Below are positions 3,100 to 34,135 of a stretch of DNA of 64,000 nucleotides, piece after piece. Position numbers and translations under genes: made by a program. This stretch comes from Embleya scabrispora DSM 41855 (GTDB lineage: Bacteria; Actinomycetota; Actinomycetes; Streptomycetales; Streptomycetaceae). The DNA is taken from the NCBI RefSeq assembly GCF_000372745.1, contig NZ_KB889640.1, positions 124,194-188,193 on the forward strand, in the 5' to 3' direction. The notes under the pieces are model-generated. The model searched no databases. It saw only the letters and a program-made list of their open reading frames with translations, and was not told where the DNA came from. Position 1 is the stretch's first letter. Each line of letters starts with the position of its first letter.

Positions 3100-4521
3100 T
3101 CAGCCGATCGGCGGGGTCGCCTCGGCCAGTGCCTCGATCGCGGCGACGAAACAGTCCGCCGGCGGGGTGACCAGGCCCGCGCCGACCTGGCCGGTGCCCG
3201 CGACCTTGCCGGCGATACCGGTGTTGATCTGCGGCAGGATGCCGGTGCGCACCACCTTGGTCACGTCGATCCCGGTCGGCGTGCCGCGGAAGTCCAGCAC
3301 CGGAATCTGGTAGGCCGGGTTCTCCGCGAGGGTGATCTCGTACATCCGCCGGGTCGCGGCCAGCGCGTCGTCCACCTCGCCGCCGATGAACCGCACGATC
3401 GCCGGCGCCGCGGCCATCGCGAAGCCGCCGATGCCCGCGGTCTCGGTGATCGCCGAGTCGCCGATGTCGGGGTTGGCGTCCTCCGGGCCGTACGCGCCCA
3501 GGTACAGGCCGTCCGGGACCTCGGCGGGGCCGGTGTACCAGCGGTCGCCGGTGCCGGAGACCTGGATGCCGAAGTCGGTGCCGTTGCGGGCCATGGCCAC
3601 CACGAGCGAGGAGCCGGGCACATCGCGCCCCGCGTCCATCGCCAGCTTGCAGGCGGGCATGTCCAGGTTCAGGAAGAAGTGGTCGTTGCCGCCGACGAAG
3701 CGGGCCGCCTCGGCGATGTCCGAGGTCGGCGCGCCGCTGTCGATCATGTTCGGCAACAGTTCGCGCAGCAGCATCAGGGTGCCCGCGCGGTTGCGGTTGT
3801 GGCCCTCGTCGCCCATCTGCAACATCTGCGCGATGATCGCCCGGATGTCGATCGGTTCACCCGCGCGCACCGCGGTGCGCAGCAGCGGGCCCAGCACCGC
3901 CGACATCCAGCGCAGCCGGTCGATCACCTCGGATCCGTACGCGCCGTAGCGCAGCACCTTGCCCAGACCCTCGTTCAGCGAGCACCACGCGCGGGTGCCG
4001 TGGGTGGTGTCCTCCAGTTCGAACATCCACATCGACGGGCTGACCACGCCCGCCATCGGCCCCACCGCGTGGTGGTGGTGGCACGAGTCCAGTTCGGCGT
4101 GGCCCTGGGCGAGGAACTTCTCCGCCGCCTCGGGCGAGTCGGCCAGGCCCTCGAAGAGCACCGCGCCGATCAGCGCGCCGCGCATCGGCCCCGACGCCCG
4201 GGCCCAGTCGATCGGCGGTCCCGCGTGCCGGAACTGGCCGGCCGTCAGACCCAGCGCCTCGCTCGCGGGCTTGACGTCCACCAGATGCGGCGTGGACGCC
4301 AGAACCCGTTCGATCGCGACCTTGTTGGCCGCCTCGCGGCGCGCGTCGGCGAGCACCGCGGCCAGCGCGTCGGCGGTGCCGGGCAGCGGCGGGCGCCAGT
4401 CGACGGCGGTCACCGGTACGGCCTGGGCGGCCAGCGCGTCGGCGAGCAGTTCGGCGCCGACGGTCACCACCGACGGGTCGCGGGTCAGCAGCGCGCTGCC
4501 TCGGGGGTTGGGAGCACTCAC
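3100..4521 (-). CDS. DUF1116 protein, YlbE/AllG-like subunit of oxamate-carbamoyltransferase-type complex
   Basis: A 473-residue DUF1116 protein. Members are encoded beside FdrA, as E. coli ylbE is. E. coli FdrA, YlbE and YlbF have been assigned as an oxamate carbamoyltransferase that makes oxamate and carbamoyl phosphate from oxalurate in allantoin degradation (recalled from the literature). Visible signatures include a His-rich segment (SCHHHHAVGPM), EGLGKVLRYGA, and QMGDEGHNRNRAGT. The GTG start at 4521 overlaps the fdrA stop in a GTGA tetranucleotide, so translation is coupled. The annotated longer reading frame reaching 5370 is antisense to nothing real and overlaps fdrA, so it is rejected. 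No allantoinase or ureidoglycolate gene is nearby, which makes the substrate open. Confidence 0.85.
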   Translation of the reverse strand: MSAPNPRGSALLTRDPSVVTVGAELLADALAAQAVPVTAVDWRPPLPGTADALAAVLADARREAANKVAIERVLASTPHLVDVKPASEALGLTAGQFRHAGPPIDWARASGPMRGALIGAVLFEGLADSPEAAEKFLAQGHAELDSCHHHHAVGPMAGVVSPSMWMFELEDTTHGTRAWCSLNEGLGKVLRYGAYGSEVIDRLRWMSAVLGPLLRTAVRAGEPIDIRAIIAQMLQMGDEGHNRNRAGTLMLLRELLPNMIDSGAPTSDIAEAARFVGGNDHFFLNLDMPACKLAMDAGRDVPGSSLVVAMARNGTDFGIQVSGTGDRWYTGPAEVPDGLYLGAYGPEDANPDIGDSAITETAGIGGFAMAAAPAIVRFIGGEVDDALAATRRMYEITLAENPAYQIPVLDFRGTPTGIDVTKVVRTGILPQINTGIAGKVAGTGQVGAGLVTPPADCFVAAIEALAEATPPIG

Positions 4522-5996
4522 GCGTCGAGCCCTTCTACGATCGCCACGGCGCGCCGGGCGGCCTCGGCATTGGACAGGTGGACCTCGGCGCCGGCGGCGG
4601 TGAGCGTGCGGGCCTGGGCGGCCAGATCCTGCGGGTCCAGGTCGGTGCCGCACAGCGAGATCAGTACGGTGGGCGAGTTCGGCCCGGCCGCGCGCAGCAC
4701 CTCGGCCAGGTCGGCGGCCGGGTCCGGGTGCGCACCGTGTCCGAGCACGACGTCCAGGAGCAGTACGGCGCAGGCCGGGTCGGCCAGTTCCTCGGCGAGT
4801 CGCTCCAGGCGCAGGCTCGGGTCGATCATCGGGTGCGGGCGGCCCGCGGTCAGGCCGTCGTCGCCGAAGTCGATCATCAGGTGCCCGGCGGCGTGCAGGT
4901 CCGCGGGCAGCGCCCAATCGGCGCGCAGCGGGATGTTGGACGCGATCGGCCCGAGCCGGTCGGCGGCGATGATCATCGCCTCGTCGCACAGCGTGCCGCC
5001 GCAGAACAGCCCGCGCAACGCGCCGGTGCGGGTGGGCGCCGCCTGCTCGGGTCGCCAGACCCGGCCCTGGACCCCGGGATGTCCGATGGCGGCCAGCGCC
5101 TTGGTCGCGGCGGCCGTCAGGTCGTCGCGGCCCTGCCCGAGGAAGGCCAGTTGCACCGGCGTGGCCAGCGTCGCCGCGTAGCGCTCGACCTCGGCCGCGA
5201 CCGCGTCGGCGGGCGGCTTGGAGACCACCACGATCAACTCGGTGGCCGGGTCCGCGTCCAGCATCGCCAACGCCTGGAGCGTCGAGCGCGCGCCGACCGC
5301 CTCGCTCAGGTCGCGTCCGCCCACGCCCAGACAGTGGCTGACACCGCTGCCGGCCGCGTGCAGCAGACACATCAGTTCCTGCGACCCGGTACCGGAGGCG
5401 GCCACGATGCCGATCGGGCCCGGGCGCACCGAGTTGGCGAAGCCGAGGCCGACGCCGCCGACCAGTGCGGTGCCGCAGTCGGGGCCCATCACCAGGAGTC
5501 CGCGTTCGCGGCCGACGTCCTTGAGTCGGATCTCCTGCTCGACGGGCACGTTGTCGCTGAAGATCAGCACGTCCAGGCCGGCTTCGAGGGCATCCATCGC
5601 CTCGGCGAACGCGTGCGGCCCGGGCACCGAGACCAGGGCCAGGCTCGCACCGGGCGTGGCACCCGCCGCGGTGCGGATCGTGCGCGGCGGGACACCGGCG
5701 GCGGAGCCGATCCCGGTGCCGCCGCCGGTGGACAGCACCAGGGCCTCTTCGAGCACCTCGCGGGCACGCCGCAGCGCGTCCTCGTCGTCGGCCCGGATGG
5801 CCACGATCAGGTCGTTGGGTCCGGCGCCGTCGGGGGTCTCGAAGCCCATGCCCGCCAACAGGCCGACGTTGAGTTCCGTCGCCATGGCGACGAGCGCCTT
5901 GGTCACCCCGTCCACCGCGGATACCGATCGGCTCACCTGCATCAGGCTGACCGAGTCTCGGTATGTTCCGCGGCGCAGCTCAAGCGCGCTGCTCAC
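4518..5996 (-). CDS. fdrA: FdrA-family protein (AllF-like), acyl-CoA-synthetase-like fold
   Basis: A 492-residue FdrA homologue, related in fold to succinyl-CoA synthetase alpha chains. It shows nucleotide- or ligand-binding loops typical of that fold (LLVMGPDCGTALVGGVGLGF about residues 170-190, IVAASGTGSQEL about 197-208) and a second Rossmann-like half (LFCGGTLCDEA). In E. coli FdrA is part of the oxamate carbamoyltransferase complex. The GTG start at 5996 has a strong GGAAGGAG site upstream. It overlaps the DUF2877 gene by 17 bases and the DUF1116 gene by 4. The complete trio on one message argues for an intact complex. Confidence 0.9.
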   Translation of the reverse strand: MSSALELRRGTYRDSVSLMQVSRSVSAVDGVTKALVAMATELNVGLLAGMGFETPDGAGPNDLIVAIRADDEDALRRAREVLEEALVLSTGGGTGIGSAAGVPPRTIRTAAGATPGASLALVSVPGPHAFAEAMDALEAGLDVLIFSDNVPVEQEIRLKDVGRERGLLVMGPDCGTALVGGVGLGFANSVRPGPIGIVAASGTGSQELMCLLHAAGSGVSHCLGVGGRDLSEAVGARSTLQALAMLDADPATELIVVVSKPPADAVAAEVERYAATLATPVQLAFLGQGRDDLTAAATKALAAIGHPGVQGRVWRPEQAAPTRTGALRGLFCGGTLCDEAMIIAADRLGPIASNIPLRADWALPADLHAAGHLMIDFGDDGLTAGRPHPMIDPSLRLERLAEELADPACAVLLLDVVLGHGAHPDPAADLAEVLRAAGPNSPTVLISLCGTDLDPQDLAAQARTLTAAGAEVHLSNAEAARRAVAIVEGLDA

Positions 5997-6930
5997 GGGC
6001 GCTCCTTCCTTCGGGGTACGGGAGTTCGGTTCCGTCGCCGCGCCCGTACGGGGCTGCGGCCACGGCTGGTACGGCGCCTGCGTCGGCTGCCTCGGCCCCG
6101 GCCAGGACGCCGTGGGCGAGGTCCGCGCCGGAGGTGTGGCCCACCGTCAGCAGGCGGTGCAGGCGAGGGAGTACGTCGGTGCTGCGGCCCACCGCGCCGA
6201 TCAGGTCGACCAGTTGCGCGCAGCCGTCGCCGCGGGCGGCGTGGCCGAGCAGGGCGGCGGACAGGTCGGTGGTGCGGCCGGGGGCGTGTGCCGCGACGCG
6301 GGCACCGAGGGTGTCCGCGCGCCGGCCGCCGGTCGGTTCGGGGTCCAGCAGGCGCTGCGCGAGCAGGAAGCCGCACAGGGCGTCGTCGCCGCTGGGGGTC
6401 AGGCCCGGGCCCAGGCCGATCAGGCGCAGCGCGGCGGCGCCGGCCCGCTCGGAGTCGGTCGCCGCGTACCGGCCAAGGTCGGCCAGGTCGGCTCGGGCCC
6501 GGCCGGACAGCCCGGTGCGTACCGGCCCCAGCGCGGTGCGCAGCGCGGCGCGGCCGGTCCGGACGGTTTCGGCGTCGCCCGGTGCGGGCGGCCGCGGCGG
6601 GGTCCACCAGCGGACCACCGTCACGTCCAGCGCACCCAGGCTCACCCGCCCGTCACCGATCCGGGCGTCGGCGCGGGCTGCCAGTGCGGGGAAGGGCGAT
6701 GCGGCGGTGCGGGCGGCGAGGACGACGGCGTTGGGCAGCCGTACCGCGTCGTGGGTGCACAGCGCGAGGACGTTTCGCTCCGGGTCGGCCAGGTAGATCG
6801 CGGCCGGGAAGACGCCGAGCACCCGCGCCGGCCGGGTCGGTCCTTCCAGCGCCGCACGAACGCGCACCGACGCCGAGCCCGGCACCGGCGTCGTCGACAC
6901 CGGATCGGCGTGTTCTCCCGGGTCTACCAC
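5980..6930 (-). CDS. DUF2877 protein, YlbF/AllH-like subunit
   Basis: A 316-residue DUF2877 protein, the first gene of the fdrA operon. The hallmark is GLGPGLTPSGDDALCGFL near the middle. E. coli YlbF has the same motif and is the third component of the oxamate carbamoyltransferase set. I chose the GTG at 6930 because GGGAGG lies about 7 bases upstream. A longer frame to 7134 adds about 68 low-complexity residues that overlap the divergent promoter. The gene is divergent from the PucR regulator, so both are probably controlled from the 6931-7150 interval. Confidence 0.85.
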   Translation of the reverse strand: MVDPGEHADPVSTTPVPGSASVRVRAALEGPTRPARVLGVFPAAIYLADPERNVLALCTHDAVRLPNAVVLAARTAASPFPALAARADARIGDGRVSLGALDVTVVRWWTPPRPPAPGDAETVRTGRAALRTALGPVRTGLSGRARADLADLGRYAATDSERAGAAALRLIGLGPGLTPSGDDALCGFLLAQRLLDPEPTGGRRADTLGARVAAHAPGRTTDLSAALLGHAARGDGCAQLVDLIGAVGRSTDVLPRLHRLLTVGHTSGADLAHGVLAGAEAADAGAVPAVAAAPYGRGDGTELPYPEGRSAREQRA

Positions 6931-7117
6931 GATGGTGCCTCCCGGGAACGGTGCGGAATCGAAGCGGTGCGAATTGATGCGGTGCGGAACCGAGGCGATA
7001 CGGAACGAAGCGCCGCGCGTCGGTGGTGAACGCGGTGTGGTCGAGGCCCCCGGGTCGGGTGAGCAACGGTGTGGCCGCTCTTCCGGAACGACTTGAATCG
7101 GACCGGCTCTATGTCTG

Positions 7118-7150: not shown

Positions 7151-8878
7151 ATGGAGCAAGTTGCCAACCTTGGCGCACTTAATTCGCGTAATTTGCCAAG
7201 CCCTGGCGGGAGTCCCGGGGGCGTGCGAACCGCGAGTACCGGCACGCTCGTTCGCGGCGTGTCGGTCCGCGACGTGCTGAGCCTCTCCAGCCTGTCCGGC
7301 GCCCGGCTGATGGCCGGCGAGCGCGGATTGGATCGTGTCGTGCAGCGGCTCAACGTGATGGAGGTCCCGGACATTCTGCCCTGGACCAAGCCGCACGAAC
7401 TCCTGCTGACCACCGGCTACCCGCTGCGCGAGACCCCACAGTCCCTGTGCGACCTGGTCACCGAGCTGGAGTCGCGCCGACTCGCCGCGGTGGGCATCAA
7501 GCTGGGCCGCTACCTGGACGAGTTGCCCGCCGACATGCTGGACGCCGCCGATCGGGTGGGCCTGCCGATCATCCGGCTGCCCGACGACGTCGCCTTCGAC
7601 GACATCCTCAACCAGGTGCTCACCGACATCCTCAACCGCCAGGCCGCGGTCTTGGCCCGCTCCGAGGAGGCGCATCGCGCGCTGGTCAGCGTGGTGCTCG
7701 CGGGCGGCGGCCTGGAGGCGATCACCGACGAACTCAGCCGGCTGCTCGGCGGCACCGTCATGGTCACCACGCCCGACGGCCGACTGCTGGCCTCCTCCGC
7801 CTCGGAGGACGTCGAGGCCAAGGCGTCCGGACGCGGCGTATTCGACGCCACCGGCCGCTTCCGGGTCGAGCGCTTCAAGCACGGCGCACGGGCCCTGGAG
7901 GAACCCGCCACCGGGGTGGCGCTGGTGCCGATCCTGGCCGGCGCCCTCGACCACGGCCGGGTCGTGCTGATCTCCGCCGGACGCACGCTCGACGAGAGCG
8001 ACATCCAGGTGTTGGAACGCGCCGCCGCCACCGCCGCGCTGGTGATCACCAAGGAACTCGCGGTCGCCGCCGTGGAGAGCAAGTATCAGGGCGACTTCAT
8101 GCGCGACCTGCTGGCCGGCCGGGCAGGCGACCCGGCGCACACCGTACGGCACTGCGCGTCCCTCGGCTGGGCGATCGACCGCCCGCTGACCGTGGTGGTC
8201 GCCCAACTCGAACCCGGCGAGGGCCCCGACCCGGAAAGCGACGACCTGCGGCCCGCGCACGAACGCTTCGCCACCGCGTGGGGCATCGTCGTGCGCGAAC
8301 GCGATCCGCGCGCGGCCGTGGTCGGCTACAGCCAGGAGGTCGTGGTGGTGATGGGCGCTTCCGAGCGCACCCCGCCCGGCGAGTTGGTGCGGCACATGGT
8401 CGCCCAGGTCTCCGGTGACGGCGGCGGCGGACGCCGCTCGTTCTCCACCGGCGTCAGCCGCGTGGTCACCGATCCCGCGCTGCTGCCCGAGGCATACGAA
8501 CAGGCCCGCCGCGCGGCCAAGGTCGGCCGGCAGATGCACGGCCCGGGCGGCATCGCCGACTTCGACAGCCTGGGCGTGTACCGCCTGCTCAGCCTGGTCC
8601 CCGACTCCGCCGAACTGACCAGTTTCATGCGGGAGACGCTCGGGGAACTCGCGAGTCGCGAGGACGAGGAGACCACCGATCTGCGCACCACCCTGGAGGT
8701 GCTGCTCGACACCAATCTCAACGTGGCCGAGACGGCCCGGATCCTGCATTTCCACTACAACACGCTGCGCTACCGGATCGGCAAACTGGAACGGTTGCTC
8801 GGCGCGTTCACCACCGACTCGCATTTGCGGCTCAACATCATGCTGGCGCTCCAGGTTCGCCGCATGCGCGGGCTGTAG
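7151..8878 (+). CDS. PucR-family transcriptional regulator (first copy)
   Basis: A 575-residue PucR-type regulator with an N-terminal PucR sensor domain (about residues 40-160, VRDVLSLSSLSGARLMAGE), a GGDEF-like CdaR middle domain, and a C-terminal HTH_30 domain (LLDTNLNVAETARILHFHYNTLRYRIGKLERLLG, about residues 520-555, read in parts). PucR controls purine degradation in Bacillus, and relatives often sit beside the nitrogen catabolic genes they control. It is divergent from the fdrA operon and followed by the permease-hydroxylase operon, so it is the obvious local regulator. The start is ATG 7151 if leaderless; GTG 7259 is a plausible alternative that keeps the whole PucR domain. Confidence 0.9.
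   Translation: MEQVANLGALNSRNLPSPGGSPGGVRTASTGTLVRGVSVRDVLSLSSLSGARLMAGERGLDRVVQRLNVMEVPDILPWTKPHELLLTTGYPLRETPQSLCDLVTELESRRLAAVGIKLGRYLDELPADMLDAADRVGLPIIRLPDDVAFDDILNQVLTDILNRQAAVLARSEEAHRALVSVVLAGGGLEAITDELSRLLGGTVMVTTPDGRLLASSASEDVEAKASGRGVFDATGRFRVERFKHGARALEEPATGVALVPILAGALDHGRVVLISAGRTLDESDIQVLERAAATAALVITKELAVAAVESKYQGDFMRDLLAGRAGDPAHTVRHCASLGWAIDRPLTVVVAQLEPGEGPDPESDDLRPAHERFATAWGIVVRERDPRAAVVGYSQEVVVVMGASERTPPGELVRHMVAQVSGDGGGGRRSFSTGVSRVVTDPALLPEAYEQARRAAKVGRQMHGPGGIADFDSLGVYRLLSLVPDSAELTSFMRETLGELASREDEETTDLRTTLEVLLDTNLNVAETARILHFHYNTLRYRIGKLERLLGAFTTDSHLRLNIMLALQVRRMRGL
7161..7200 (+). promoter_or_regulatory. Candidate PucR operator half-sites
   Basis: TTGCCAACCTTGGC at 7161-7174 is an imperfect palindrome, and TTTGCCAAG follows at 7192-7200. 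The same CTTGGCA core recurs near 28361 and on the minus strand near 38431. The sites lie inside the first codons of the PucR gene, just past its likely transcription start, which would suit autorepression. This is motif recurrence only; no binding data exist here. Confidence 0.3.
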
Positions 8879-9137: not shown

Positions 9138-10610
9138 ATGGCACTCGGCTTGGGATGGAAGCTCTACGGGGACGGCAGTACCCCACCTCCGGGTGAGGTC
9201 GTACGCCCCGACGAACGGCTCTCGTGGGGTCGGACCATCGGTCTGGGCGCACAACACATCGTCGCGATGTTCGGCGCGACATTCGTATTCCCGGTAGTCA
9301 TGGGTCTGGACCCGAACCTGGCGATCATGATGTCGGGTGTGGCCACCGTGGTCTTCCTGCTCATCGTGCAGGGCAAGATCCCCAGCTACCTCGGTACCAG
9401 CGCCGCGTTCGTCGGCGCGGTCGCCACCATTCGCGCCTCCGGCGGATCCAGCGCGACGGTGACCGGATCGATCCTGATCGCCGGCGCCGTACTCGCCCTC
9501 GCCGGCGTACTGATCCACCTGCTCGGCGCCGAACTCGTCAACAAGGCACTGCCGCCGGTGGTCACCGGCGCCGTGGTGATGTTGATCGGCTTCAACCTGG
9601 CGCCCGTGGTGGCCGACGTGTACTGGCCGCAGGACCAGTGGATCGCCATCCTGACGATGACCGCGGTGATCGCGATGACCGTGCTGCTGCGCGGCTTCTG
9701 GTCCCGGATCGCGATCTTCCTCGGTCTGATCTTCGGTTACGCGATGTCGTGGCTGTTCGACAAGGGCTTCGGGCAGATCACCTCGGTCCAGCCCGGTCAG
9801 CACGACGGCAAGGAGTTCGCGCACGACCGGGTCGACTTCTCCGGCGTCACCTCCGCCGACTGGTTCGGGCTGCCCACAACACACGCCCCGGACTTCAAGA
9901 CCTCGGCGATCCTGGTCGCGCTGCCCGCCGTGATCGCACTGATCGCGGAGAACGCCGGCCACGTCAAGGCGGTCTCCGAGATGACCGGCGCCGATCTGGA
10001 CGGGAGCCTGGGCAAGGCGATCACCGCGGACGGCCTGGGCACCGTGATGGCCAGCGCGGTGGGCGGCTCGCCCACCACCACCTACGCCGAGAACATCGGC
10101 GTCATGGCGGCCACCCGGGTCTACTCCACCGCCGCGTACTACGTGGCGGCCGTCGTCGCCGTGCTGTTCGGCCTGTGTCCCAAGTTCGGCGCGCTGATCG
10201 CGGCCACCCCCGGCGGCGTGCTCGGCGGGATCACCGTGGTGCTCTACGGCATGATCGGCCTGCTCGGCGCGAAGATCTGGATCGAGAACAAGGTCGACTT
10301 CGCCAACCCGATCAACCTCGTCCCGATCGCGGCCGGCATCGTGATCGGCATCGGCGGCGTCGCGATCAAGATCAACGACGACTTCGTCATCGAGGGCATC
10401 GCGCTGGGCACCATCGTCACCCTGGTGGCCTACCACACCCTGCATGCCCTGGCTCCCGCACACATGCGCGACCCCAAGGCGCCCGCCGACGTCGAACTGG
10501 AGGGCGGCACCGCGCTGTCCCTGGGCACGGTGGAGGAACACCAGCCCGCGGAGCAGCCGTTGGCCGGCTCCACCGCCGTCGCTCCGCCGACGAAGACACC
10601 GCCGAGCTGA
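9138..10610 (+). CDS. NCS2-family uracil/pyrimidine permease, RutG-like
   Basis: A 490-residue membrane protein with the NCS2 layout of about 14 segments. It resembles E. coli RutG in MFGATxxxPxxMGLDPN (residues 44-60), IPSYLGTSAAFVG, and TTTYAENIGVMAATRVYST (about 313-330). The substrate-binding glutamates of UraA correspond to E271 in AENAGHVKAVS and E318 in TYAENIG. The xanthine/urate branch instead carries QNNG-type motifs at the second site, so uracil or a related pyrimidine is the better prediction. It opens the operon with the molybdenum hydroxylase, which points to import of that enzyme's substrate. The C-terminal 50 residues form a cytoplasmic tail. Confidence 0.88.
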   Translation: MALGLGWKLYGDGSTPPPGEVVRPDERLSWGRTIGLGAQHIVAMFGATFVFPVVMGLDPNLAIMMSGVATVVFLLIVQGKIPSYLGTSAAFVGAVATIRASGGSSATVTGSILIAGAVLALAGVLIHLLGAELVNKALPPVVTGAVVMLIGFNLAPVVADVYWPQDQWIAILTMTAVIAMTVLLRGFWSRIAIFLGLIFGYAMSWLFDKGFGQITSVQPGQHDGKEFAHDRVDFSGVTSADWFGLPTTHAPDFKTSAILVALPAVIALIAENAGHVKAVSEMTGADLDGSLGKAITADGLGTVMASAVGGSPTTTYAENIGVMAATRVYSTAAYYVAAVVAVLFGLCPKFGALIAATPGGVLGGITVVLYGMIGLLGAKIWIENKVDFANPINLVPIAAGIVIGIGGVAIKINDDFVIEGIALGTIVTLVAYHTLHALAPAHMRDPKAPADVELEGGTALSLGTVEEHQPAEQPLAGSTAVAPPTKTPPS

Positions 10611-10664: not shown

Positions 10665-11579
10665 GTGAAGCCGCCGGCATTCCGATATCACGCACCGACC
10701 GATCTGGCCGAGGCCCTCGACGCCCTCGACGGGGTCGGCCACGACGGAAAGGTCCTCGCCGGCGGCCAGAGTCTGATCCCGATGCTCAACATGAGACTCG
10801 CGGCCCCGGCCCACCTGGTCGACATCAACGGGCTCGCCGAACTCTCCTACGTCCGCACCGACCCCGGCGGCGTCGCGGTGGGCGCGCTCGCCCGGCACGC
10901 CGAGGTCGAGGCGGACGAGGCCGCACACGCGGTCGTACCCCTGCTGCGCCAGGGCCTGCGCCTGGTCGCCCACCCGGTGATCCGCAACCGCGGCACCACC
11001 GTGGGCAGCCTCGCGCACGCCGACCCCTCCGGCGAGATGACCGCCGTGCTGGCCCTGCTCGGCGGCTCGATGACGCTGGCCCGCAAGGGCGCCACCCGCA
11101 CCGTCGCCGCCGAGGACTTCTTCCTCGGCCCGCTGGAGTCGTGCATCGAGCCCGGCGAACTGGCCGTGGCCGCCTACTTCCCGCGCCTGCCCGGCCGCAC
11201 CGGCACCGAGTTCGTGGAGATCGCCCGCCGACACGGCGACTACGCGATGTGCGGCGTCGCGGCGGCGGTCACCGTCGACGACGATCTGCGGATCACTTCG
11301 GCTCGCACCGCCTACCTCTCGCTCTCGCCCGTCCCGCTCGTGCTCGACCTGACCGACGCGCTGATCGGCCGCACCGCCGACACCGCGGAGTGGAACGACG
11401 CGGCGACGCTCGCGGGCGCGAGCCTGGAGCCCGAGCCGGACATCCACGCCACCGCCGAATACCGCGCCCAGCTGGCCCGCGTACTGACCGTCCGTGCCCT
11501 GCGTACCGCCACCGAACGCGCGGCCCGGGTCGAGCCGAACCCCACCGCACCGAGCACCACCGACGAGCGGAGCGCCTGA
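10665..11579 (+). CDS. Molybdenum hydroxylase FAD subunit, CoxM-like
   Basis: A 304-residue FAD-binding medium subunit of the xanthine dehydrogenase/CO dehydrogenase family. It has the two FAD motifs AGGQS (32-36) and TTVGSLAHAD (111-120; TIGG is more usual in the second, so Val replaces Gly at one position). The GTG start at 10665 follows an AGGAGGAG site. It transfers electrons from the iron-sulfur subunit to an acceptor. The stop overlaps the next ATG by one base, giving a tightly coupled M-S-L order. Confidence 0.92.
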   Translation: MKPPAFRYHAPTDLAEALDALDGVGHDGKVLAGGQSLIPMLNMRLAAPAHLVDINGLAELSYVRTDPGGVAVGALARHAEVEADEAAHAVVPLLRQGLRLVAHPVIRNRGTTVGSLAHADPSGEMTAVLALLGGSMTLARKGATRTVAAEDFFLGPLESCIEPGELAVAAYFPRLPGRTGTEFVEIARRHGDYAMCGVAAAVTVDDDLRITSARTAYLSLSPVPLVLDLTDALIGRTADTAEWNDAATLAGASLEPEPDIHATAEYRAQLARVLTVRALRTATERAARVEPNPTAPSTTDERSA

Positions 11580-25386: not shown

Positions 25387-26928
25387 TCAGCAGCCCAGCC
25401 GGGCGTACCGTTCCAACCGAGCCGCACGCCGTTCGGCCGTGGGTCGGCGCAACAGCCCGACCAACTCGTACTCCAATACCTGGGCCAGCCGGGCCAGGAA
25501 CGCGACCGGCTCGTCGGCCGCATCGGGCCGCTCGGCCACGATCCGGTCCACCACCCCGTCGCGCAACAGGTCCAGCGACCTGATGCCCTGCGCGGCGGCG
25601 ATCTCCGCGCCCCGGGACGGCGTCCGGTAGCGCAGCGCCGACGCACCCTCGGGCGGCAACGGCGACAACCAACCGTGCTGCGCGCACAACACCCGGTCGG
25701 CGGGCAACAGCGCGAGCGCGCCGCCGCCCGCGCCCTGTCCGAGCAACAGGCACAACGTCGGGGTGGGCAGGGTGACCAACTCGGCCAGACAGCGGGCTAT
25801 CTCACCGGCCAGGCCACCCTCCTCGGCCTCCCGGCTGAGCGCCGCGCCTCCGGTGTCCACGACGCTGACCAGCGGCAGGTCGAGTTCGGCGGCCAGCCGC
25901 ATGCCGCGCCTGGCCACCCGCAGCCCGGCCGGGCCGAACGGTCCGTGACTGGACTGCCGGGCCCGGTCCTGGGCCAGCACCACGCACGGCGCACCGCCGA
26001 ACCTGGCCAGCGCGAGCAGCAGACCGGGGTCGCTCTCGCCCTGTCCGGTCCCGTGCAGCGGCACCACCGCGCTCGCCGCGTGCCGCAACAGGGCCCGGGC
26101 GCCCGGGCGTTCGGAACGACGGGAGAGTTCGACCGAGGTCCACGCCGGAACGTCGGCCAGGTCCTCGACAGGCAACGGCGCGACGTCGGGCAGCTGTTCA
26201 CGCGGCGCGGTGACGATGTCCAGGACTCGTGCGGCCACTTCGCCGAGCCGATCGGGCTCGACGACGGCGTCCACCAGGCCGTGCGCGTACAGGTTCTCCG
26301 CGACCTGGACACCCTCAGGAAAGGGTTGCCCGTGCAGAGCCTCGTACACGCGCGGACCGAGGAAGCCGATCAGCGCGCCGGGTTCGGCGGCGGTGACGTG
26401 GCCGAGTGAGCCCCACGAGGCGAGCACACCACCGGTGGTGGGGCCCCGCAGGTAGACGAGGTACGGCAGGCCGGCGCTCTTGTGCGCGGCGACGGCGGCG
26501 CTGATCCGCACCATCTGGAGAAAGGCGACCGTGCCCTCCTGCATCCGAGTACCCCCGGAGGTCGGCGATGCGACCAGCGGCAGCCGTTCGGCGGTGGCGC
26601 GTTCGATCGCGGCCACCAGGCGCGAGGACGCGGCCACCCCGATCGAGCCGGCCAGGAAGTCGAATTCGCAGGCCACCACGGCCACTCGGCGACCCCGGAT
26701 CCGGCCCTCGCCGGTGACCACCGACTCGTCCACGCCACTCTTGGCGGCGGCGGCTCGCAGTTCGTCGACGTACCCCGCATCCAGCCGTTCCGGGCGGTGC
26801 GGCGCGCTGTCCCAACTCGTCCAGGTGTCGGAGTCCAGGACCAGGCGGATCAACTCGTGCGCTCCGACGCGGGTGCGGCGGGTGGGTACCGGCGCGGACG
26901 CGGACGCCGGCCCGGGCGCGGTGTTCAT
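25387..26928 (-). CDS. Fused acyl-CoA carboxyltransferase (AccD-AccA-like)
   Basis: A 513-residue protein with two crotonase-fold carboxyltransferase halves. The beta-like half is about residues 40-255 (SPTSGGTRMQEGTVAFLQMV and GPTTGGVLASWGSLGHV). The alpha-like half is about 290-510 (VSVVDTGGAALSREAEEGG and LGQGAGGGALALLPADRVL). The AccD zinc-ribbon cysteines are not visible at the N-terminus. No biotin carboxylase or biotin carrier gene is in the window. It overlaps the CoA-transferase stop in ATGA. It may serve acetyl-CoA carboxylase, or, given context, act on malonyl-CoA as malonate decarboxylase carboxyltransferases do; the second idea is inference. Confidence 0.8.
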   Translation of the reverse strand: MNTAPGPASASAPVPTRRTRVGAHELIRLVLDSDTWTSWDSAPHRPERLDAGYVDELRAAAAKSGVDESVVTGEGRIRGRRVAVVACEFDFLAGSIGVAASSRLVAAIERATAERLPLVASPTSGGTRMQEGTVAFLQMVRISAAVAAHKSAGLPYLVYLRGPTTGGVLASWGSLGHVTAAEPGALIGFLGPRVYEALHGQPFPEGVQVAENLYAHGLVDAVVEPDRLGEVAARVLDIVTAPREQLPDVAPLPVEDLADVPAWTSVELSRRSERPGARALLRHAASAVVPLHGTGQGESDPGLLLALARFGGAPCVVLAQDRARQSSHGPFGPAGLRVARRGMRLAAELDLPLVSVVDTGGAALSREAEEGGLAGEIARCLAELVTLPTPTLCLLLGQGAGGGALALLPADRVLCAQHGWLSPLPPEGASALRYRTPSRGAEIAAAQGIRSLDLLRDGVVDRIVAERPDAADEPVAFLARLAQVLEYELVGLLRRPTAERRAARLERYARLGC

Positions 26929-28133
26929 GCGCGCCGCGCGGCGTGCAGGGCGCGAGCATCCTCGGCGTCGAGCCACGCCTGCACGCTGTCCGTGTGCTGG
27001 CCCAGCGTCGGCGGAGCCTCGTGTCGGCGCCGACCGCCGTCCGCCGCGTCGCCGGCCACGCCGTCGAGGCGGATCGGCGGGCCGGGCAGGGTGATCGGAC
27101 CGAGCGTGCTGTGCATGACGTCGAGCAGCAGACCCTGTGACTTGGTCTGATCCCACTCGTAGACCCGGTCGATCGTGCGCACCTCGCCGGCCGGTATGCC
27201 CGCGGCGGCCAGTTCCGGCAACAACTCGTCCACGGCGCGCTCGGCGAACGCGGCGTTGATGGCGTCCGCCAGTTCGGCCCGATTGACCACGCGGTCGGCG
27301 TTGACCGCGAAGCGCGCGTCGTCCACCGCCAGGCCGACCATCGGCGCGAACTTGGCCCACAACTTCTCGCTGCCCACCGCGACCTGGATGATCGCGTCCC
27401 GGCAGCGGTAGGAGCCGTACGGCTGGAGCGAGGGGTGCAGGTTGCCCTGCGCGCGCCCGACCTGGCCGGCCACGGTGTAGTTGGTGCCCTGGAAGGCGTG
27501 TACGCCGACGATCGCGGCGAGCAGCGAGGTGCGCACGACCCGGCCCAGGCCGGTGCGTTCGCGCTCGTGCAGCGCGGCGACCACGCCGTAGGCGCCGTAC
27601 ATCCCGGCCAGCAGGTCGCCGATCGGCACACCGATCCGGGTGGGGTCGTCGGGACCGGGGCCGGTCAGGCTCATCAGACCGGCCTCGCCCTGGGCGATCT
27701 GGTCGTAGCCGGGCCGGCCGCCCTGCGGACCGTCGTGCCCGAAGCCGGTGATGGACAGCACCACCAGGCGCGGGTTGAGCCGGGTCAACTCCTCCATCGG
27801 GAAGCCGAGTCGATCGAGCACGCCGGTGCGGAAGTTCTCCACGAGCACGTCGCTGTGCCGGATCAGGCGGGCCAGCGTCCGTCGGCCCTCCTCGGTCTTC
27901 AGGTCGAGGACGATCGACTCCTTGTTGCGGTTGCAGGACAGGAAGTAGGTCGACTCACGCGCGTCCTCGGCCCCGACGAACGGCGGACCCCAGCCACGGG
28001 TGTCGTCCCCGCCGTCCGGGTTCTCCACCTTGATGACACGGGCGCCCATGTCGCCGAGCATCATCGCGGCGTGCGGGCCGGCGAGGGCGCGGGAGAGGTC
28101 GAGCACGACGAGGTCGCAGAGCGGTCCGCTCAC
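26925..28133 (-). CDS. Class III (CaiB/BaiF) CoA-transferase family protein
   Basis: A 402-residue protein with the family N-terminus (LCDLVVLDLSRALAGPHAAMMLGDMGA, in parts), IKVENPDGGDDTRGWGPPF and NRNKESIVLDLK. The family moves CoA between carboxylates. By eye the catalytic Asp position of formyl-CoA transferase (D169, in VDVSLLDA-type segments) aligns with A206 in RTSLLAAIVG, so the mechanism may differ or the alignment may be off. GTG 28133 is chosen because AAGGGG lies upstream and it starts at the usual family position. It overlaps the carboxyltransferase gene. Activation of malonate fits the neighbourhood but is not proven. Confidence 0.82.
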   Translation of the reverse strand: MSGPLCDLVVLDLSRALAGPHAAMMLGDMGARVIKVENPDGGDDTRGWGPPFVGAEDARESTYFLSCNRNKESIVLDLKTEEGRRTLARLIRHSDVLVENFRTGVLDRLGFPMEELTRLNPRLVVLSITGFGHDGPQGGRPGYDQIAQGEAGLMSLTGPGPDDPTRIGVPIGDLLAGMYGAYGVVAALHERERTGLGRVVRTSLLAAIVGVHAFQGTNYTVAGQVGRAQGNLHPSLQPYGSYRCRDAIIQVAVGSEKLWAKFAPMVGLAVDDARFAVNADRVVNRAELADAINAAFAERAVDELLPELAAAGIPAGEVRTIDRVYEWDQTKSQGLLLDVMHSTLGPITLPGPPIRLDGVAGDAADGGRRRHEAPPTLGQHTDSVQAWLDAEDARALHAARRA

Positions 28134-29444: not shown

Positions 29445-31166
29445 CTAGGGCGGGTGCGGGCCTCGGGTGGCCAGGAGGGTGCGGGCGGTCAGGGCGGCGC
29501 GTAGGGGGCCCTGGCGGTCGGGGGCGTCGGGGCTGACCCGCAGGAGGGACTCGATCAGGGCCAGGCGTTGGTGTACCGACTGGCGGCGCAGGAACAGCAC
29601 GCCGGCGGTTTCGGTCTTGGAGCAACCGCAACGCAGGTACGCCTCCAGGGTGTCCACCAGGCCCGTGCCGCGCGCTGCGTCCGAGGCGAGCAACGGGCCG
29701 AGTTGGTCCTCGACCAGGTCGGCGAGTTCCTCCGGGGTCAGCCGGTCCAGTACGCGCTCCAGGGCCCAGGCGTCGGCGAGCACGGTGTCGGCGATCGCCG
29801 CGGACCGCACCGGGCGAAGCCGCCGGGCCAGCCGCAGCGTGTCCCGCGCGGCGCGCAGGCTGTGCCCGACTCGGGCGACGTCGCGCACGAGCGGCCCCAG
29901 CGCCGAGGTCGGCTCGTCGCCCGTCACCGTCGGCAGGCCCAGGCGCGTGAGCAGTTCGGCGACGTGCGTGTCCCGGTCGAGCGCGATCAGCGCGTACGCT
30001 CCGCCCGGCCCGTCGCTGACCAGGCCCCGGCCGCCGCACGCGCGCAGCCCCTCGTACAGCACCGTCACCGCCCGCACCGGATCCGGCAGGTGCAGCGCGA
30101 CGCTCGCCCAGGCCGCCGTCCCGGCCGGGACCAGGCCGCAGACCGTCAGCCGCGCCGCCACCTCGCGCGGCGGCAGCACGTCCCGCAGCAGACCCTCGAC
30201 GAGTTCACGACGCTCGCGCCCGACCCACCCGTCCCGATCCGCCAACCGCAGCAGGGCCGGCGCGAACACCTGCGCCGCGTGCTCGGCCACCTCCGCCGCG
30301 ACCTCGGCGCTCGCCCGCGACCACGACCCGGCACCCGCGTGCTCGTCGGCGGCGCCGGACCGGGCGATCGCCGTCGTGTCCCCGGCCCCTCCGGGCAACC
30401 CACCGGCCACCGCACCCGCACGACCGTCGCCATACCCCTCGCCCGGCCGCACGCCCCCCGGCCCGGCCCCGACCTCGGCTCCGCCGTCGACCCCGTCCGC
30501 CCCGCCCACCCCCGAGGCGCCCAGCAGCAACCGCCCCCACAGCGCCCCGCGCAGTTCCACCCCGGCCTCCGCCGCCGGCGCTCCCACCACCTCGGTCGGA
30601 GCGTCGGTGCCGGCCCAGGACGTGATCGTGCCGTCGATGCCGGCCAGGACCACCGGTCGATCGGTGAGGCGGGACAGGGTGCGGGACAGCTCGTCCACAC
30701 CCGCGCCGCGCGCGAGCACCCCGGACAGGACCCGGACGATCTCGTTGACGTGCCGCAGCCGCGTCACCGCCGAGTCGAGGATGGCCGCGTTGACCGCCTC
30801 GGCGATCTCCACGAACGGCACCACCCCGCGCAGCACGACCAGCGGCAACCGCGCCTGGGCCGCCGCGCGCACCACGTCGGCCGGCACCTCGCCGAACGTA
30901 CGACCCACCTCGAACGCCACCCCCGCCACGCCCGCCGCCGCGAGGTCGACGACGTAGCGCCGCCGCTCGCCCGCGTTCCGCCCGGCCAGGCCCAGACCGG
31001 TGGTGAGCAGCAGTTCGTCGCCGCGCAACAGCGGCGCGATCTCGTAGATCTCACTGGAATGCACCCAGCGCACCGGGCGCTCCAGATCGGCGCGCGGATC
31101 CGGCACCACGGGATCGGCGGCACGCAGCAGGGGGTGCGCGAGGACCGCTCGCAGGGACAGCGTCAT
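29445..31166 (-). CDS. PucR-family transcriptional regulator (second copy)
   Basis: A 573-residue PucR-type regulator. The N-terminal sensor (about 1-135) contains LLRGDELLLTTGLGLAGRN. A middle domain has an unusual Gly/Ala/Asp-rich insert at about residues 220-285. The C-terminal HTH_30 (about 510-560) reads LEAYLRCGCSKTETAGVLFLRRQSVHQRLALIESLL, in parts. The start ATG 31166 has GGAG 8 bases upstream. It is divergent from the cytosine permease-deaminase operon and probably regulates it. The 195-base divergent gap holds a TCACGG direct repeat at 31202 and 31217 and a C/A-rich stretch, but no clear promoter. Confidence 0.88.
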   Translation of the reverse strand: MTLSLRAVLAHPLLRAADPVVPDPRADLERPVRWVHSSEIYEIAPLLRGDELLLTTGLGLAGRNAGERRRYVVDLAAAGVAGVAFEVGRTFGEVPADVVRAAAQARLPLVVLRGVVPFVEIAEAVNAAILDSAVTRLRHVNEIVRVLSGVLARGAGVDELSRTLSRLTDRPVVLAGIDGTITSWAGTDAPTEVVGAPAAEAGVELRGALWGRLLLGASGVGGADGVDGGAEVGAGPGGVRPGEGYGDGRAGAVAGGLPGGAGDTTAIARSGAADEHAGAGSWSRASAEVAAEVAEHAAQVFAPALLRLADRDGWVGRERRELVEGLLRDVLPPREVAARLTVCGLVPAGTAAWASVALHLPDPVRAVTVLYEGLRACGGRGLVSDGPGGAYALIALDRDTHVAELLTRLGLPTVTGDEPTSALGPLVRDVARVGHSLRAARDTLRLARRLRPVRSAAIADTVLADAWALERVLDRLTPEELADLVEDQLGPLLASDAARGTGLVDTLEAYLRCGCSKTETAGVLFLRRQSVHQRLALIESLLRVSPDAPDRQGPLRAALTARTLLATRGPHPP

Positions 31167-31361
31167 GGACACTCCGTCCGGAAGATGCGTCAGTATCCCG
31201 GTCACGGTGTCCGTTGTCACGGCCCCCCAGCCCGAGGAACCTTCGGTGATCACCCCACACGACCACTCATCACAGGCTCACCACACACCCACCACACCCG
31301 CACCATCGCACCCGCCCCACCACCCCACCGCCGTGCTCGCTCCGCCCCACCGGAGGTCTCC

Positions 31362-32774
31362 GTGGCAATCCTCGAACAGCCCGCGCAACCGGCAGAACCC
31401 GCTCACACCGTCGACCACACCCAGTCCCTGGAACCGGTGCCCGACGAGGCCCGCGATTCGACCCCCGCGCACCAGTTCTGGATCTGGGCGGGCGCCAACA
31501 TCGCGCCGATCAACTGGGTACTGGGCGCCCTGGGCATCGTGCTGGGCCTCGGCCTCCTCGACACCGTGCTGGTGCTGGTCGTGGGCAATCTCGTGGGCAT
31601 GGGCGTCTTCGGCCTGTTCGTCCTGATGGGCCAGCGCACCGGCGTGACCCAGATGGTGCTGGCCCGGGCCGCCTTCGGCCGGCGCGGCGCGTACCTGCCC
31701 GCCGCCGTCCAGGGGGTGATCTCCGCCGGTTGGTGTGCGATCAACACCTGGATCGTGCTCGACCTGGTGATGGCCCTGCTGGACAGCGTCGGCTACGTCG
31801 GCGGCAACGGCACCAAGGTCGTGGTCGTCCTGGTCGTGATGGCCGCCCAGATCGCGATCGCCGCGTCCGGCTTCGGCGCGATCGCCGGCTTCGAGCGCTG
31901 GACGGTGCCCGCGACCCTGGTCGTCCTGGCCGCGATGACCGTGGTGGCCTGGACCCGGCTGGACATCGACTGGGGCCACGCGAGCACGTTGAGCGGCGGC
32001 GACCGGTGGTCGGCGATGAGCACGGTGATGACCGCGATCGGTGTCGGCTGGGGCATCACCTGGTTCGCCTACGCCTCGGACTACTCCCGCTTCGTCCCGC
32101 GCACCACCTCCCGGCGCAAGCTGTACGCGGCCAGCGTGCTCGGCCAGTTCCTCCCGGTGGTCTGGCTCGGCGTGCTCGGCGCCTCGCTGGCCACGGTCAA
32201 CGCCAAGGCCGACCCCGGCCGACTGATCGTCGACTCGTTCGGCGGCCTGGCCATCCCGGTGCTGCTTCTGGTCCTGCACGGGCCGATCGCGACGAACATC
32301 CTGAACCTGTACAGCTGTTCGTTGTGCGCCCAGACCCTGGACATCAAGGTCTCCCGGCGCGTGTTGTCCTGCCTGGTGGGCGCGTTCGCCACCGTCTTCA
32401 CGCTGTTCCTGGTGTTCCGGGCGAGCCTGGCGCACACCCTGGACACGTGGCTCGCGGGCATGGTCACGTGGGTCGCGCCGTGGGCGGCGGTGATGCTGGT
32501 GCACTTCTACGTCTTCGCCCGGCAGCGGATCGACGTGCCCGCGCTGTACGCCGCGCCGCGCCGCGGTCTGCTCGCGGACGTGCGCTGGTCGGCGATCGTC
32601 GCACTGGTGTGCGGCATGGTCGCGACGTGGTGCTTCGAGTACGGCGTGCCGCAGGCGCTGCGCGGCCCCGGAGCCGAGGCGATCGGCAATGTGGACCTGT
32701 CCTGGCTGGCCGGCTCGCTGGTCGCGGGCGGCCTGTACCTGGTGCTCGGCCGACGCGACCGAGCCGAGCGGTGA
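31362..32774 (+). CDS. codB: Cytosine permease, NCS1 family
   Basis: A 470-residue NCS1 transporter with about 12 membrane segments. CodB-like segments include FWIWAGANIAPINWVLGALG (residues 40-59), GVISAGWCAINTWIV, and ITWFAYASDYSRFVPRTTS. The GTG start at 31362 has GGAGG 6 bases upstream. The next gene is an unmistakable cytosine deaminase, as in the E. coli codBA operon, which supports cytosine as the substrate. It is divergent from a PucR regulator. Confidence 0.88.
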   Translation: MAILEQPAQPAEPAHTVDHTQSLEPVPDEARDSTPAHQFWIWAGANIAPINWVLGALGIVLGLGLLDTVLVLVVGNLVGMGVFGLFVLMGQRTGVTQMVLARAAFGRRGAYLPAAVQGVISAGWCAINTWIVLDLVMALLDSVGYVGGNGTKVVVVLVVMAAQIAIAASGFGAIAGFERWTVPATLVVLAAMTVVAWTRLDIDWGHASTLSGGDRWSAMSTVMTAIGVGWGITWFAYASDYSRFVPRTTSRRKLYAASVLGQFLPVVWLGVLGASLATVNAKADPGRLIVDSFGGLAIPVLLLVLHGPIATNILNLYSCSLCAQTLDIKVSRRVLSCLVGAFATVFTLFLVFRASLAHTLDTWLAGMVTWVAPWAAVMLVHFYVFARQRIDVPALYAAPRRGLLADVRWSAIVALVCGMVATWCFEYGVPQALRGPGAEAIGNVDLSWLAGSLVAGGLYLVLGRRDRAER

Positions 32775-32845
32775 CCGAGAGAGGGCGGTGGGCAAAAGCC
32801 CGCAGTGACCCGACGAATCCACCGCGACCCCTGGAGCCATCCGAC

Positions 32846-34135
32846 ATGCAGGGCAACAGCCGCACCGTGACCGACTGCCGACTCCCGGACCGCCCGGAAC
32901 GCGTGGACATCGCGATCGAGGCCGGCATCGTCACGAGCATCACCCCCACCGGCGGCACTCCCCCGGCCGGCCCCGTCCTCGACGCCGCCGGCGCCCTGGT
33001 CACCCCGCCCTACGTCGAGCCGCACATCCACCTCGACACCGCGCTGACCGCCGGACAGCCGCGCTGGAACGTCTCGGGCACGTTGTGGGAGGGCATCGAA
33101 CGGTGGTCCGAGCGCAAGGCCATGCTGACCCGCGAGGACGTACTGGCCCGTGCCGAGGAGGTTTTGCGCTGGCAGGTCGCGAACGGCGTGCTGCACGTGC
33201 GCAGCCACTGCGACGTGACCGACCCCGAACTGACCGCCCTGCACGCCCTGGTCGAATTGCGCGAGCGGGTACGGGACGTACTCGACCTCCAGGTGGTGGC
33301 CTTCCCGCAGGAGGGCATCGTCTCCTTCCCCGACGGCGAGCGGCTGATGGCCCGTGCCGTCGAGGCGGGCGCCGATGTGCTCGGGGCGATCCCGCACTTC
33401 GAGGACACCCGCGAGGACGGCGTGCGCTCGTTGCAGATCGTCTTCGAACTGGCCGAGCGACACGGCCTGTCGGTGGACGTGCACTGCGACGAGATCGACG
33501 ACGAGCAGTCCCGTTTCGTCGAGGTGGTCGCCACCCTCGCGCACCGCACCGGGCTGAAGCAGCGGGTGACGGCCAGTCACACCACCGCGATGGGCTCCTA
33601 CAACGGCGCCTACAGCCGCAAGCTCCGTCGGATCATCGCCCGTTCGGGCATCCACCTGGTCTGCAACCCGATGGTGAACCTGACCCTCCAGGGCCGCTTC
33701 GACGACTATCCCAAACGACGCGGCCTCACCCAGGTCAAGGAGATGCTCGCGGCGGGGGTCAATGTGGCGTTCGGTCACGACGACGTGATGGACCCGTGGT
33801 TCCCGCTCGGGACGGCGAACCCGATCCAGGTCGCGCACGCCGGCGTCCTGGCCGCCCAGATGTCCGGACAGGACGAGATGAACGAAGTGTTCGCGATGGT
33901 CACCGAGCGGGCGGCGCGGGTGCTCGACCTCGGCGAGCGGTACGGCCTGGCCGTCGGCCGCTCGGCCGACTTCCTGATCCTGCCCGCCGATTCGCCCTTC
34001 GACGTGCTGCGCCGCCAGGTCCGCCCGAGCCATGTGATCTCCCGAGGCCGCGTGGTCGCCGAGACCCCGGCCACGCCCACCCGGCTGACCTGGCCGGGCC
34101 GGCCGCCGCGGGACGTGGACTTCGTACGGCGGTGA
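32846..34135 (+). CDS. codA: Cytosine deaminase
   Basis: A 429-residue amidohydrolase with close resemblance to E. coli CodA. The metal and catalytic residues line up with a shift of one: H60 and H62 (HIHLDT), H213, E216 (VHCDEIDDE), H245 (ASHTTAMGSYNGAY) and D312 (GHDDVMDPW). The segment QGRFDDYPKRRGLTQVKEML is also CodA-like. It converts cytosine to uracil and ammonia. With CodB 71 bases upstream it forms a salvage or catabolic pair. In this island uracil would feed the putative oxidative route rather than only salvage. Confidence 0.93.
   Translation: MQGNSRTVTDCRLPDRPERVDIAIEAGIVTSITPTGGTPPAGPVLDAAGALVTPPYVEPHIHLDTALTAGQPRWNVSGTLWEGIERWSERKAMLTREDVLARAEEVLRWQVANGVLHVRSHCDVTDPELTALHALVELRERVRDVLDLQVVAFPQEGIVSFPDGERLMARAVEAGADVLGAIPHFEDTREDGVRSLQIVFELAERHGLSVDVHCDEIDDEQSRFVEVVATLAHRTGLKQRVTASHTTAMGSYNGAYSRKLRRIIARSGIHLVCNPMVNLTLQGRFDDYPKRRGLTQVKEMLAAGVNVAFGHDDVMDPWFPLGTANPIQVAHAGVLAAQMSGQDEMNEVFAMVTERAARVLDLGERYGLAVGRSADFLILPADSPFDVLRRQVRPSHVISRGRVVAETPATPTRLTWPGRPPRDVDFVRR

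Follow-up and report, generated by a model that had tools for sequence, protein, structure and literature searches.

The window analysed here, a stretch of 64,000 nucleotides from Embleya scabrispora DSM 41855 (contig NZ_KB889640.1, positions 124,194 to 188,193), carries genes for a barbiturase, a molybdenum (Mo) hydroxylase, a three-subunit carbamoyltransferase of the AllFGH type (FdrA, DUF1116 and DUF2877) and a carbamate kinase. Judging from gene content, linkage and co-occurrence, we consider it likely that these genes specify an ATP-yielding, phosphorolytic branch of oxidative pyrimidine catabolism. The host genome comprises 11.4 Mb in 190 contigs, and its single matches to PF09663 (barbiturase family) and PF06545 (AllG) both lie inside the window. 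Open reading frames were called with a crude, home-made codon-usage caller, and 30 of the deduced proteins were scanned against Pfam and 20 against NCBIfam. All genes named in a first-pass annotation of the sequence were recovered as profile matches. The genes are:

625-1791, + strand: CoxE-like protein (PF05762), flanking, probably for Mo-hydroxylase maturation
1798-2907, + strand: XdhC-like protein (PF02625/PF13478), flanking, probably for Mo-hydroxylase maturation
3100-4521, - strand: AllG (DUF1116) subunit of the AllFGH carbamoyltransferase (PF06545, 325 bits; PDB 3clq is a relative)
4518-5996, - strand: AllF (FdrA) subunit (NF004760, 428 bits, cut-off 433; PDB 3dmy), overlapping allG by 4 bp
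5980-6930, - strand: AllH (DUF2877) subunit (PF11392, 82 bits, cut-off 25), overlapping allF
7223-8878, + strand: PucR-type regulator (PF07905, PF13556), divergent from allHFG
9138-10610, + strand: NCS2 uracil/xanthine-type permease (PF00860, 249 bits; best NCBIfam match RutG, 366 bits, cut-off 759)
10665-11579, + strand: Mo hydroxylase, FAD subunit (PF00941, PF03450)
11579-12112, + strand: Mo hydroxylase, 2Fe-2S subunit (PF01799, PF00111)
12109-14538, + strand: Mo hydroxylase, large subunit, proposed uracil dehydrogenase (NF040766, CODH_aero_grp5, 1549 bits, cut-off 950)
14554-15201, + strand: CoxG-like protein (PF06240)
15227-16126, + strand: CN-hydrolase of the nitrilase superfamily (Nit), proposed malonamate amidase (PF00795, 153 bits)
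22901-24025, - strand: barbiturase (PF09663, 497 bits; best PDB match 5hwe)
24200-25105, - strand: carbamate kinase (PF00696; NF009007, 283 bits, cut-off 266)
25387-26928, - strand: fused AccD-AccA carboxyltransferase, proposed to act in malonyl-CoA decarboxylation (PF01039, PF03255)
26925-28133, - strand: class III CoA-transferase, proposed malonate CoA-transferase (PF02515, 391 bits)
29571-32774, + strand: NCS1 (CodB-like) permease (PF02133, matching residues 622-1046 of the open frame, so that the transporter domain begins near 31434; true start probably near 31.4 kb)
32846-34135, + strand: cytosine deaminase CodA (NF006685, 587 bits, cut-off 483)
34296-36170, - strand: HyuB, hydantoinase B/oxoprolinase (PF02538, 468 bits), part of the same string of genes in relatives
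36173-38317, - strand: HyuA, hydantoinase A/oxoprolinase (PF01968, PF05378; closest PDB entry N-methylhydantoinase 7hk5)

The genes fall into two halves. In the first (3.1-16.1 kb), allGFH diverge from a pucR-permease-Mo hydroxylase-coxG-nit series; in the second, the genes for the CoA-transferase, AccDA, carbamate kinase and barbiturase occupy 28.1 to 22.9 kb in descending order, and codBA and hyuBA lie beyond them (29.6-38.3 kb). The first-pass annotation had placed its genes in one island at 3100-34135. All of them indeed lie there, but unrelated genes (for UppS, a SpoIIE-type phosphatase, YCII, a PAS regulator and an aminotransferase) split the halves in the host genome, and the boundary needs to be moved because hyuB and hyuA, which that annotation had missed and which are conserved cluster members, join the set in relatives. 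A Thg1-family (tRNAHis guanylyltransferase) gene at 42074-42829 on the - strand bears no relation to the pyrimidine cluster.

The nearest named matches of the barbiturase come from Embleya sp. NBC_00888 (98.9%) and Streptomyces sp. SID3343 (95%). The window protein is 75.6% identical to the PDB entry 5hwe, 'Barbiturase' (599 bits), as compared to 322 bits for the best PDB cyanuric acid hydrolase. It also passes the NCBIfam model for cyanuric acid amidohydrolase, NF052395 (486 bits, cut-off 360), and annotation alone would therefore mislead. In an alignment, counted from a conserved Lys, the position of Arg188 of cyanuric acid hydrolases (CAH) is occupied by Asn200 in the window protein and by Asn in 5hwe as well. 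According to the literature, barbiturases replace this Arg by Gln (PMC4051656); the window protein agrees with this subgroup in lacking Arg, yet has Asn where Gln is reported. Across the loci compared (counted per locus, one genome being able to supply several), the position is Asn in 134 (68-100% identity to the window protein), Arg in 24 (37-43%) and Gly, Tyr or Phe in three more (40-42%). On these grounds, we predict that the PF09663 protein of the window is a barbiturase with barbiturate-hydrolysing activity. The alternative that the ring substrate is cyanuric acid and that AllFGH splits biuret could draw on the NF052395 match and on comammox bacteria, for which an allFGHK set adjoining triuret/biuret genes is described in PMC12625717. 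The much higher score to 5hwe, the Asn in place of the Arg kept by cyanuric acid hydrolases and the poor fit of a uracil-type permease, a cytosine deaminase and malonate-type genes render it very improbable.

Homologues of other types were also encountered. The genus of genome G196 (genomes and loci are referred to by our own G and L numbers), suspected to be Rhodococcus, the experimentally studied barbiturase host, was searched across 148 genomes. Barbiturase-family matches were present in 27, four of them at E 1e-138 to 1e-142 and the others at 1e-113 to 1e-120; all fifteen loci retrieved are Arg-type and 37-43% identical to the window protein, and none is 5hwe-like. Plasmid records contain homologues from Enterobacteriaceae and Rhizobium with less than 60% identity; many plasmids of Enterobacteriaceae carry genes for a barbiturase-family 'ring-opening amidohydrolase' (46% identical), and the organism most often listed is Rhizobium, with 67 of 132 records. 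The 5.7 Mb linear Embleya record NZ_CP108785.1, filed as a plasmid, also bears a barbiturase gene.

The three AllFGH subunits are encoded by adjacent, overlapping genes and score above the Pfam cut-offs for PF06545, PF00549 and PF11392, while NF004760 is missed by 5 bits. With their E. coli counterparts, AllG shares 50% identity (over 408 amino acids) and AllF 42%. The carbamate kinase exceeds the cut-off of NF009007 and stays below that of TIGR00746 (326 bits, cut-off 358). According to PMC11326118, E. coli AllFGH interconverts oxalurate plus phosphate with oxamate plus carbamoyl phosphate.

The first-pass annotation had predicted that barbiturase and AllG co-occur, and this held among relatives and across the phylum, the genes often being linked. 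Of 100 relatives, 26 contain PF09663 and 24 contain PF06545; the two occur together in 22, the hydrolase alone in four, AllG alone in two and neither in 72. The 22 pairs include G020, whose copies are divergent and separated by 7.6 Mb, and G097, with a 25-position hydrolase fragment at a contig end. The two genes lie on the same contig within 65 kb in 11 of them, on the same contig at the distance just given in G020, and on different contigs in ten. In 396 Actinomycetota genomes (taken to be the same set in the phylum-wide scans for barbiturase, AllG and Mo hydroxylase), 27 have the barbiturase family and 49 have AllG; both are found in 22 as against 3.3 expected by chance (27 x 49 / 396), the hydrolase only in five, AllG only in 27 and neither in 342. 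These pairs are located on one contig in 17 of 22 cases, 3.7-44 kb apart. Fisher p values are about 5e-16 for the relatives and about 4e-18 for the phylum; they ignore kinship and are thus not counts of independent origins. Named barbiturase genomes (50 of 80 barbiturase loci) contain AllG in 48 of 50 cases, and in 35 the two are on the same contig, called from records of equal length within 100 bases, at distances of 4.7-102 kb (median 33 kb; for L002 its second, linked AllG was taken).

The association follows the type of hydrolase. For 41 of the 52 PF09663 genomes the Arg188 position could be typed (no locus was retrieved for the remaining 11): 34 Asn-type genomes have AllG and one does not, and five of the six non-Asn genomes are without AllG, the sixth having one 7.6 Mb away. 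Asn is found in all 18 of the 22 phylum pairs that were typed. Five phylum genomes carry a divergent hydrolase; none of them yielded an AllG match, and three are only 74-89% complete.

Twenty-six regions were mapped, selected for holding both barbiturase and AllG; several stop at contig ends, and component counts are thus lower bounds. Carbamate kinase is found in at least 24, the permease in 23, AllH and PucR in 22 each, the FAD, 2Fe-2S and large subunits of the Mo hydroxylase in 21, 20 and 19, CoxG in 18, HyuA in 14, HyuB in 13, Nit in 11 (two of them paralogues of about 33% identity), XdhC in seven, the CoA-transferase in six, and AccDA, CodA and NmrA in five each. CodAB, taken as the first step in the first-pass annotation and present in the window, is thus optional elsewhere. 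The full set except CodAB occurs as one string in G024: xdhC and allGFH, divergent from pucR-permease-Mo hydroxylase (FAD, 2Fe-2S and large subunits)-coxG-nit-hyuA-hyuB-CoA-transferase-accDA-carbamate kinase-barbiturase. In G062 (10.5 Mb, single contig), for which and for its genus mates we use the label Catenulispora-type, nit-hyuA-hyuB-carbamate kinase-barbiturase-xdhC touch or overlap. A single strand of G447 encodes barbiturase, a CodA homologue, an NCS2 permease, carbamate kinase, AllH, AllF, AllG, the three Mo hydroxylase subunits (FAD, 2Fe-2S, large), CoxG and an amidase, and in G443 allH begins 28 bp past the barbiturase gene, while the Mo enzyme encoded behind allG is another one (29%). 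Carbamate kinase is encoded upstream of barbiturase on the same strand, with its start 885-1287 bp before, in 66 of 80 loci, some of which begin just before the barbiturase gene. AllFGH and carbamate kinase are, as these arrangements illustrate, built into barbiturase operons in several families.

A phylogenetic tree of AllG (47 rows) places 34 of 35 barbiturase-linked rows on one branch with a support of 86/87, G443 remaining unplaced. The E. coli proteins AllG and YahG cluster with G518 and G050, respectively, and neither of these two genomes contains PF09663. The tree agrees with a specialised, barbiturase-linked subgroup of moderate support; a single origin was not shown by the program. 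A further AllFGH-family pathway is likely in genomes of the G050/G078 type, given the grouping of G050 AllG with YahG. In G050 and G078 (L148, L149), which are without PF09663, the AllF and AllG genes adjoin carbamate kinase.

AllFGH might also be an ordinary oxalurate enzyme, with oxalurate arising from purines or from a hydantoin/parabanate branch (Mo hydroxylase, HyuAB) parallel to barbiturase. Oxalurate is the substrate of the E. coli complex as described in PMC11326118, PucR carries a Pfam name referring to purine catabolism, and genomes G179 and G301 combine a Mo hydroxylase (53% identity), HyuAB and AllFG without barbiturase. In E. coli, oxalurate is formed from purines by AllD, ureidoglycolate dehydrogenase. 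This enzyme scored above its cut-off in none of the 100 relatives (27 had weaker matches, the best with 214 bits against a cut-off of 496), and the host genome gave no match at E 0.001. Queries with E. coli AllB, AllC and AllD remained without a hit in the window; at E 1e-10 they recovered a single gene from the 26 regions, an AllB-like one in G263. In addition, smaller clusters in G447, G456 and G157 hold barbiturase, AllFGH and carbamate kinase with HyuAB unrecognised. Taken together, an oxalurate origin appears quite unlikely.

The Mo hydroxylase of the window has the active-site loop PYRGAGR in its large subunit. This loop is shared by 24 of 27 homologues; in the other three no such pattern was found, two being cut by the locus end and one being 29% identical. 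Form I CO-oxidising enzymes have (A/S)YRCS(F/L)R (PMC13240472), a motif that the window enzyme does not match, and compared to the form II loop AYRGAGR it has P instead of A in the first position. The designation 'form II' in the first-pass annotation is therefore approximate, although a Mo hydroxylase is indeed present. The best PDB matches are 6-hydroxypseudooxynicotine dehydrogenase and quinoline 2-oxidoreductase (7dqx and 1t3q, 444 and 443 bits), with PDB CO dehydrogenases at 393 bits or less. NF040766 is above cut-off in 24 of the 100 relatives, all of which are among the 26 with PF09663 (one of these a fragment). In the phylum, NF040766-type proteins occur at E 1e-250 in 30 of 396 genomes and cover 21 of the 22 that have both barbiturase and AllG; the other nine are G161, G175, G179, G279 and G301, with AllG and no hydrolase found, G323, G333 and G436, with a divergent hydrolase, and G516, with neither. 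The closest annotated family, form II of aerobic CO dehydrogenase, shares the three subunits and the proximity of CoxG, CoxE and XdhC, whereas the window enzyme lacks the form I motif, has PYRGAGR and tracks barbiturase and AllG over genomes. The activity of form II is described as unresolved in a 2026 survey (PMC13240472). Since members of NF040766 track barbiturase and AllG and are devoid of the CO-oxidation motif, the family name 'aerobic CO dehydrogenase' is probably wrong, and we regard the family as a candidate for uracil dehydrogenase. To our knowledge, a gene for uracil/thymine dehydrogenase has not been identified so far. Strings of Mo hydroxylase-HyuA-HyuB-AllF-AllG genes without barbiturase in G179 and G301 (L276, L277) possibly belong to a related pathway for another heterocycle.

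The window contains a family-level match for every step of the route that we propose, and HyuAB alone is without a step. Cytosine, where imported, would be deaminated by CodA, and uracil would be taken up by the permease. The Mo hydroxylase may then convert uracil to barbiturate, the ring of which would be opened by barbiturase, as close homology suggests, yielding ureidomalonate (3-oxo-3-ureidopropanoate). This compound is the homologue of oxalurate that is longer by one CH2, and in the key step AllFGH would act on it with phosphate to give malonamate and carbamoyl phosphate. The function of the kinase family predicts that carbamoyl phosphate and ADP are converted to ATP, CO2 and ammonia. Malonamate would be cleaved to malonate and ammonia by an amidase, of the nitrilase family in the window and of the amidase-signature or asparaginase type in some relatives. 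Where a CoA-transferase and AccD-AccA are present, malonate may proceed via malonyl-CoA to acetyl-CoA, as their families suggest. PucR presumably regulates the cluster. The core of this sequence had been put forward in the first-pass annotation: AllFGH would cleave 3-oxo-3-ureidopropanoate, carbamate kinase would follow, and an amidase would yield malonate. Co-occurrence, linkage, the AllG tree and the AllD result support it well as a genomic hypothesis with predicted chemistry.

If malonamate is the product of AllFGH, an amidase is needed, and from the proposed step one would expect different amide hydrolases to substitute for each other. In the window, coxG is immediately followed by nit; a PF01425 amidase gene occupies that slot in G093, G221 and G447, in which Nit was not found. 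An asparaginase gene adjoins allH in G418, and a gene for a different CN-hydrolase adjoins barbiturase in G263. The amidase search covered the mapped region in most smaller clusters.

In the established barbiturase/ureidomalonase pathway (Soong et al. 2001, 2002, as cited in PMC3758960 and PMC4051656), uracil is likewise oxidised to barbiturate, opened by barbiturase and degraded to malonate, but the second cleavage is hydrolytic and gives urea and malonate, whereas here we propose phosphorolysis, with carbamoyl phosphate, ATP and malonamate as products. The hydrolytic route could operate in the window too, with AllFGH and carbamate kinase belonging to another, co-located pathway; ureidomalonase is, after all, the described enzyme for ureidomalonate (PMC3758960). 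Divergent barbiturase-like genes without an AllG match have a PF01425 amidase gene directly adjacent in three of five loci (G323, G333, G436). The scan covered these three genomes (G196 and G332 were left out of it), and as they are 74-89% complete, their lack of AllG is uncertain. The amidase genes are located as follows, and their products are 59-68% identical to each other:

L271, 10539-12047: PF01425 amidase beside a divergent hydrolase
L272, 3881-5221: PF01425 amidase beside a divergent hydrolase
L273, 923-2293: PF01425 amidase beside a divergent hydrolase

The Mo hydroxylase is encoded beside hydrolase and amidase in G323, where it shares 51% identity with that of the window; in G333 and G436 it is on another contig. 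We propose the PF01425 amidase of these three genomes as a candidate ureidomalonase. We know of no sequence for this enzyme. Relatives of the amidase occur in three of the 26 AllFGH regions, but neither the window nor any of the 80 named barbiturase loci yielded a homologue, and AllFGH and carbamate kinase are embedded in barbiturase operons in several families. Such a hydrolytic route in the window is hence unlikely. The locus of Halopolyspora algeriensis (L006) combines the Mo enzyme, HyuAB, permease, barbiturase, CoA-transferase and AccDA. It has neither Nit nor carbamate kinase, there is no AllG in the genome, and genome-wide carbamate kinase profile matches are partial, with 28 bits at most. 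The joint absence of AllFGH, carbamate kinase and Nit with the rest retained is as expected of one sub-pathway that can be replaced by malonate-yielding hydrolysis, albeit in one genome.

In G179 and G301, Mo hydroxylase and HyuAB are accompanied by AllFG but not by barbiturase. As a guess, HyuAB may therefore be an additional ring opener that consumes ATP and acts on another oxidised pyrimidine or on a hydantoin. A creatinine route, conceivable from the vicinity of a CodA-like deaminase and HyuAB in the window, was set aside, as HyuAB occurs without CodA and beside Nit, carbamate kinase and barbiturase in Catenulispora-type genomes.

Several observations weigh against a phosphorolytic branch. 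Linkage in the window is loose, with 16 kb separating the two halves, and the support of the AllG clade is just moderate (86/87). In PMC11326118, E. coli AllFGH is characterised solely on oxamate and oxalurate, and we found no sequence feature indicating ureidomalonate binding. HyuA and HyuB, present in 14 and 13 of the 26 mapped regions, respectively, have no assigned step, and the low counts of Nit, CoA-transferase and AccDA make the steps after malonamate shaky beyond the window's own relatives. An AllB-like gene lies within the G263 cluster. The hydrolase occurs without AllG in four relatives, G063 (rated 100% complete, 680 contigs), G073 (6% contamination, 870 contigs), G075 (81% complete) and G089 (72% complete), and AllG occurs without the hydrolase in 27 phylum genomes, which means that AllFGH serves other uses as well. 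In all four Catenulispora-type genomes mapped, AllH was unrecognised beside AllF. Finally, Marinactinospora (L032) has a close barbiturase with other cluster genes unrecognised nearby; it has no AllG, and its carbamate kinase is encoded elsewhere in the genome and not beside barbiturase.

Two known systems resemble the proposed branch. The oxamate branch of anaerobic allantoin degradation in E. coli, AllFGH-AllK (PMC11326118), shares the three-subunit carbamoyltransferase, the carbamate kinase and an N-acylurea carboxylate substrate; unlike there, the neighbours here are barbiturase and Mo hydroxylase instead of AllB/C/E/D, and AllG, 50% identical, is separate in the tree. The ureidoglycine carbamoyltransferase of Rubrobacter (PMC4016543) likewise employs phosphorolysis and carbamate kinase in place of a hydrolytic purine step, but is a homologue of aspartate carbamoyltransferase (ATCase), to which AllFGH is unrelated (PMC11326118). 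A literature search, with preprints and subscription journals mostly outside its reach, found nothing linking barbiturase with AllFGH or carbamate kinase. In its broadest form, our proposal would make AllFGH a general N-acylurea phosphorylase recruited to barbiturate catabolism in Actinomycetota, NF040766 the uracil/thymine dehydrogenase and the PF01425 amidase the ureidomalonase; that all three apply together is a proposition on which we are evenly divided.

If the phosphorolytic branch is real, energy would be conserved in oxidative uracil catabolism, the urea-forming step becoming a substrate-level phosphorylation, and about 1 in 18 of the sampled Actinomycetota genomes (the 22 of 396 with both genes) may carry the pathway. 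Candidate genes for uracil dehydrogenase and ureidomalonase would become available, and a 'CO dehydrogenase' family would be reassigned to pyrimidine metabolism, with consequences for annotation-based counts of CO oxidisers.

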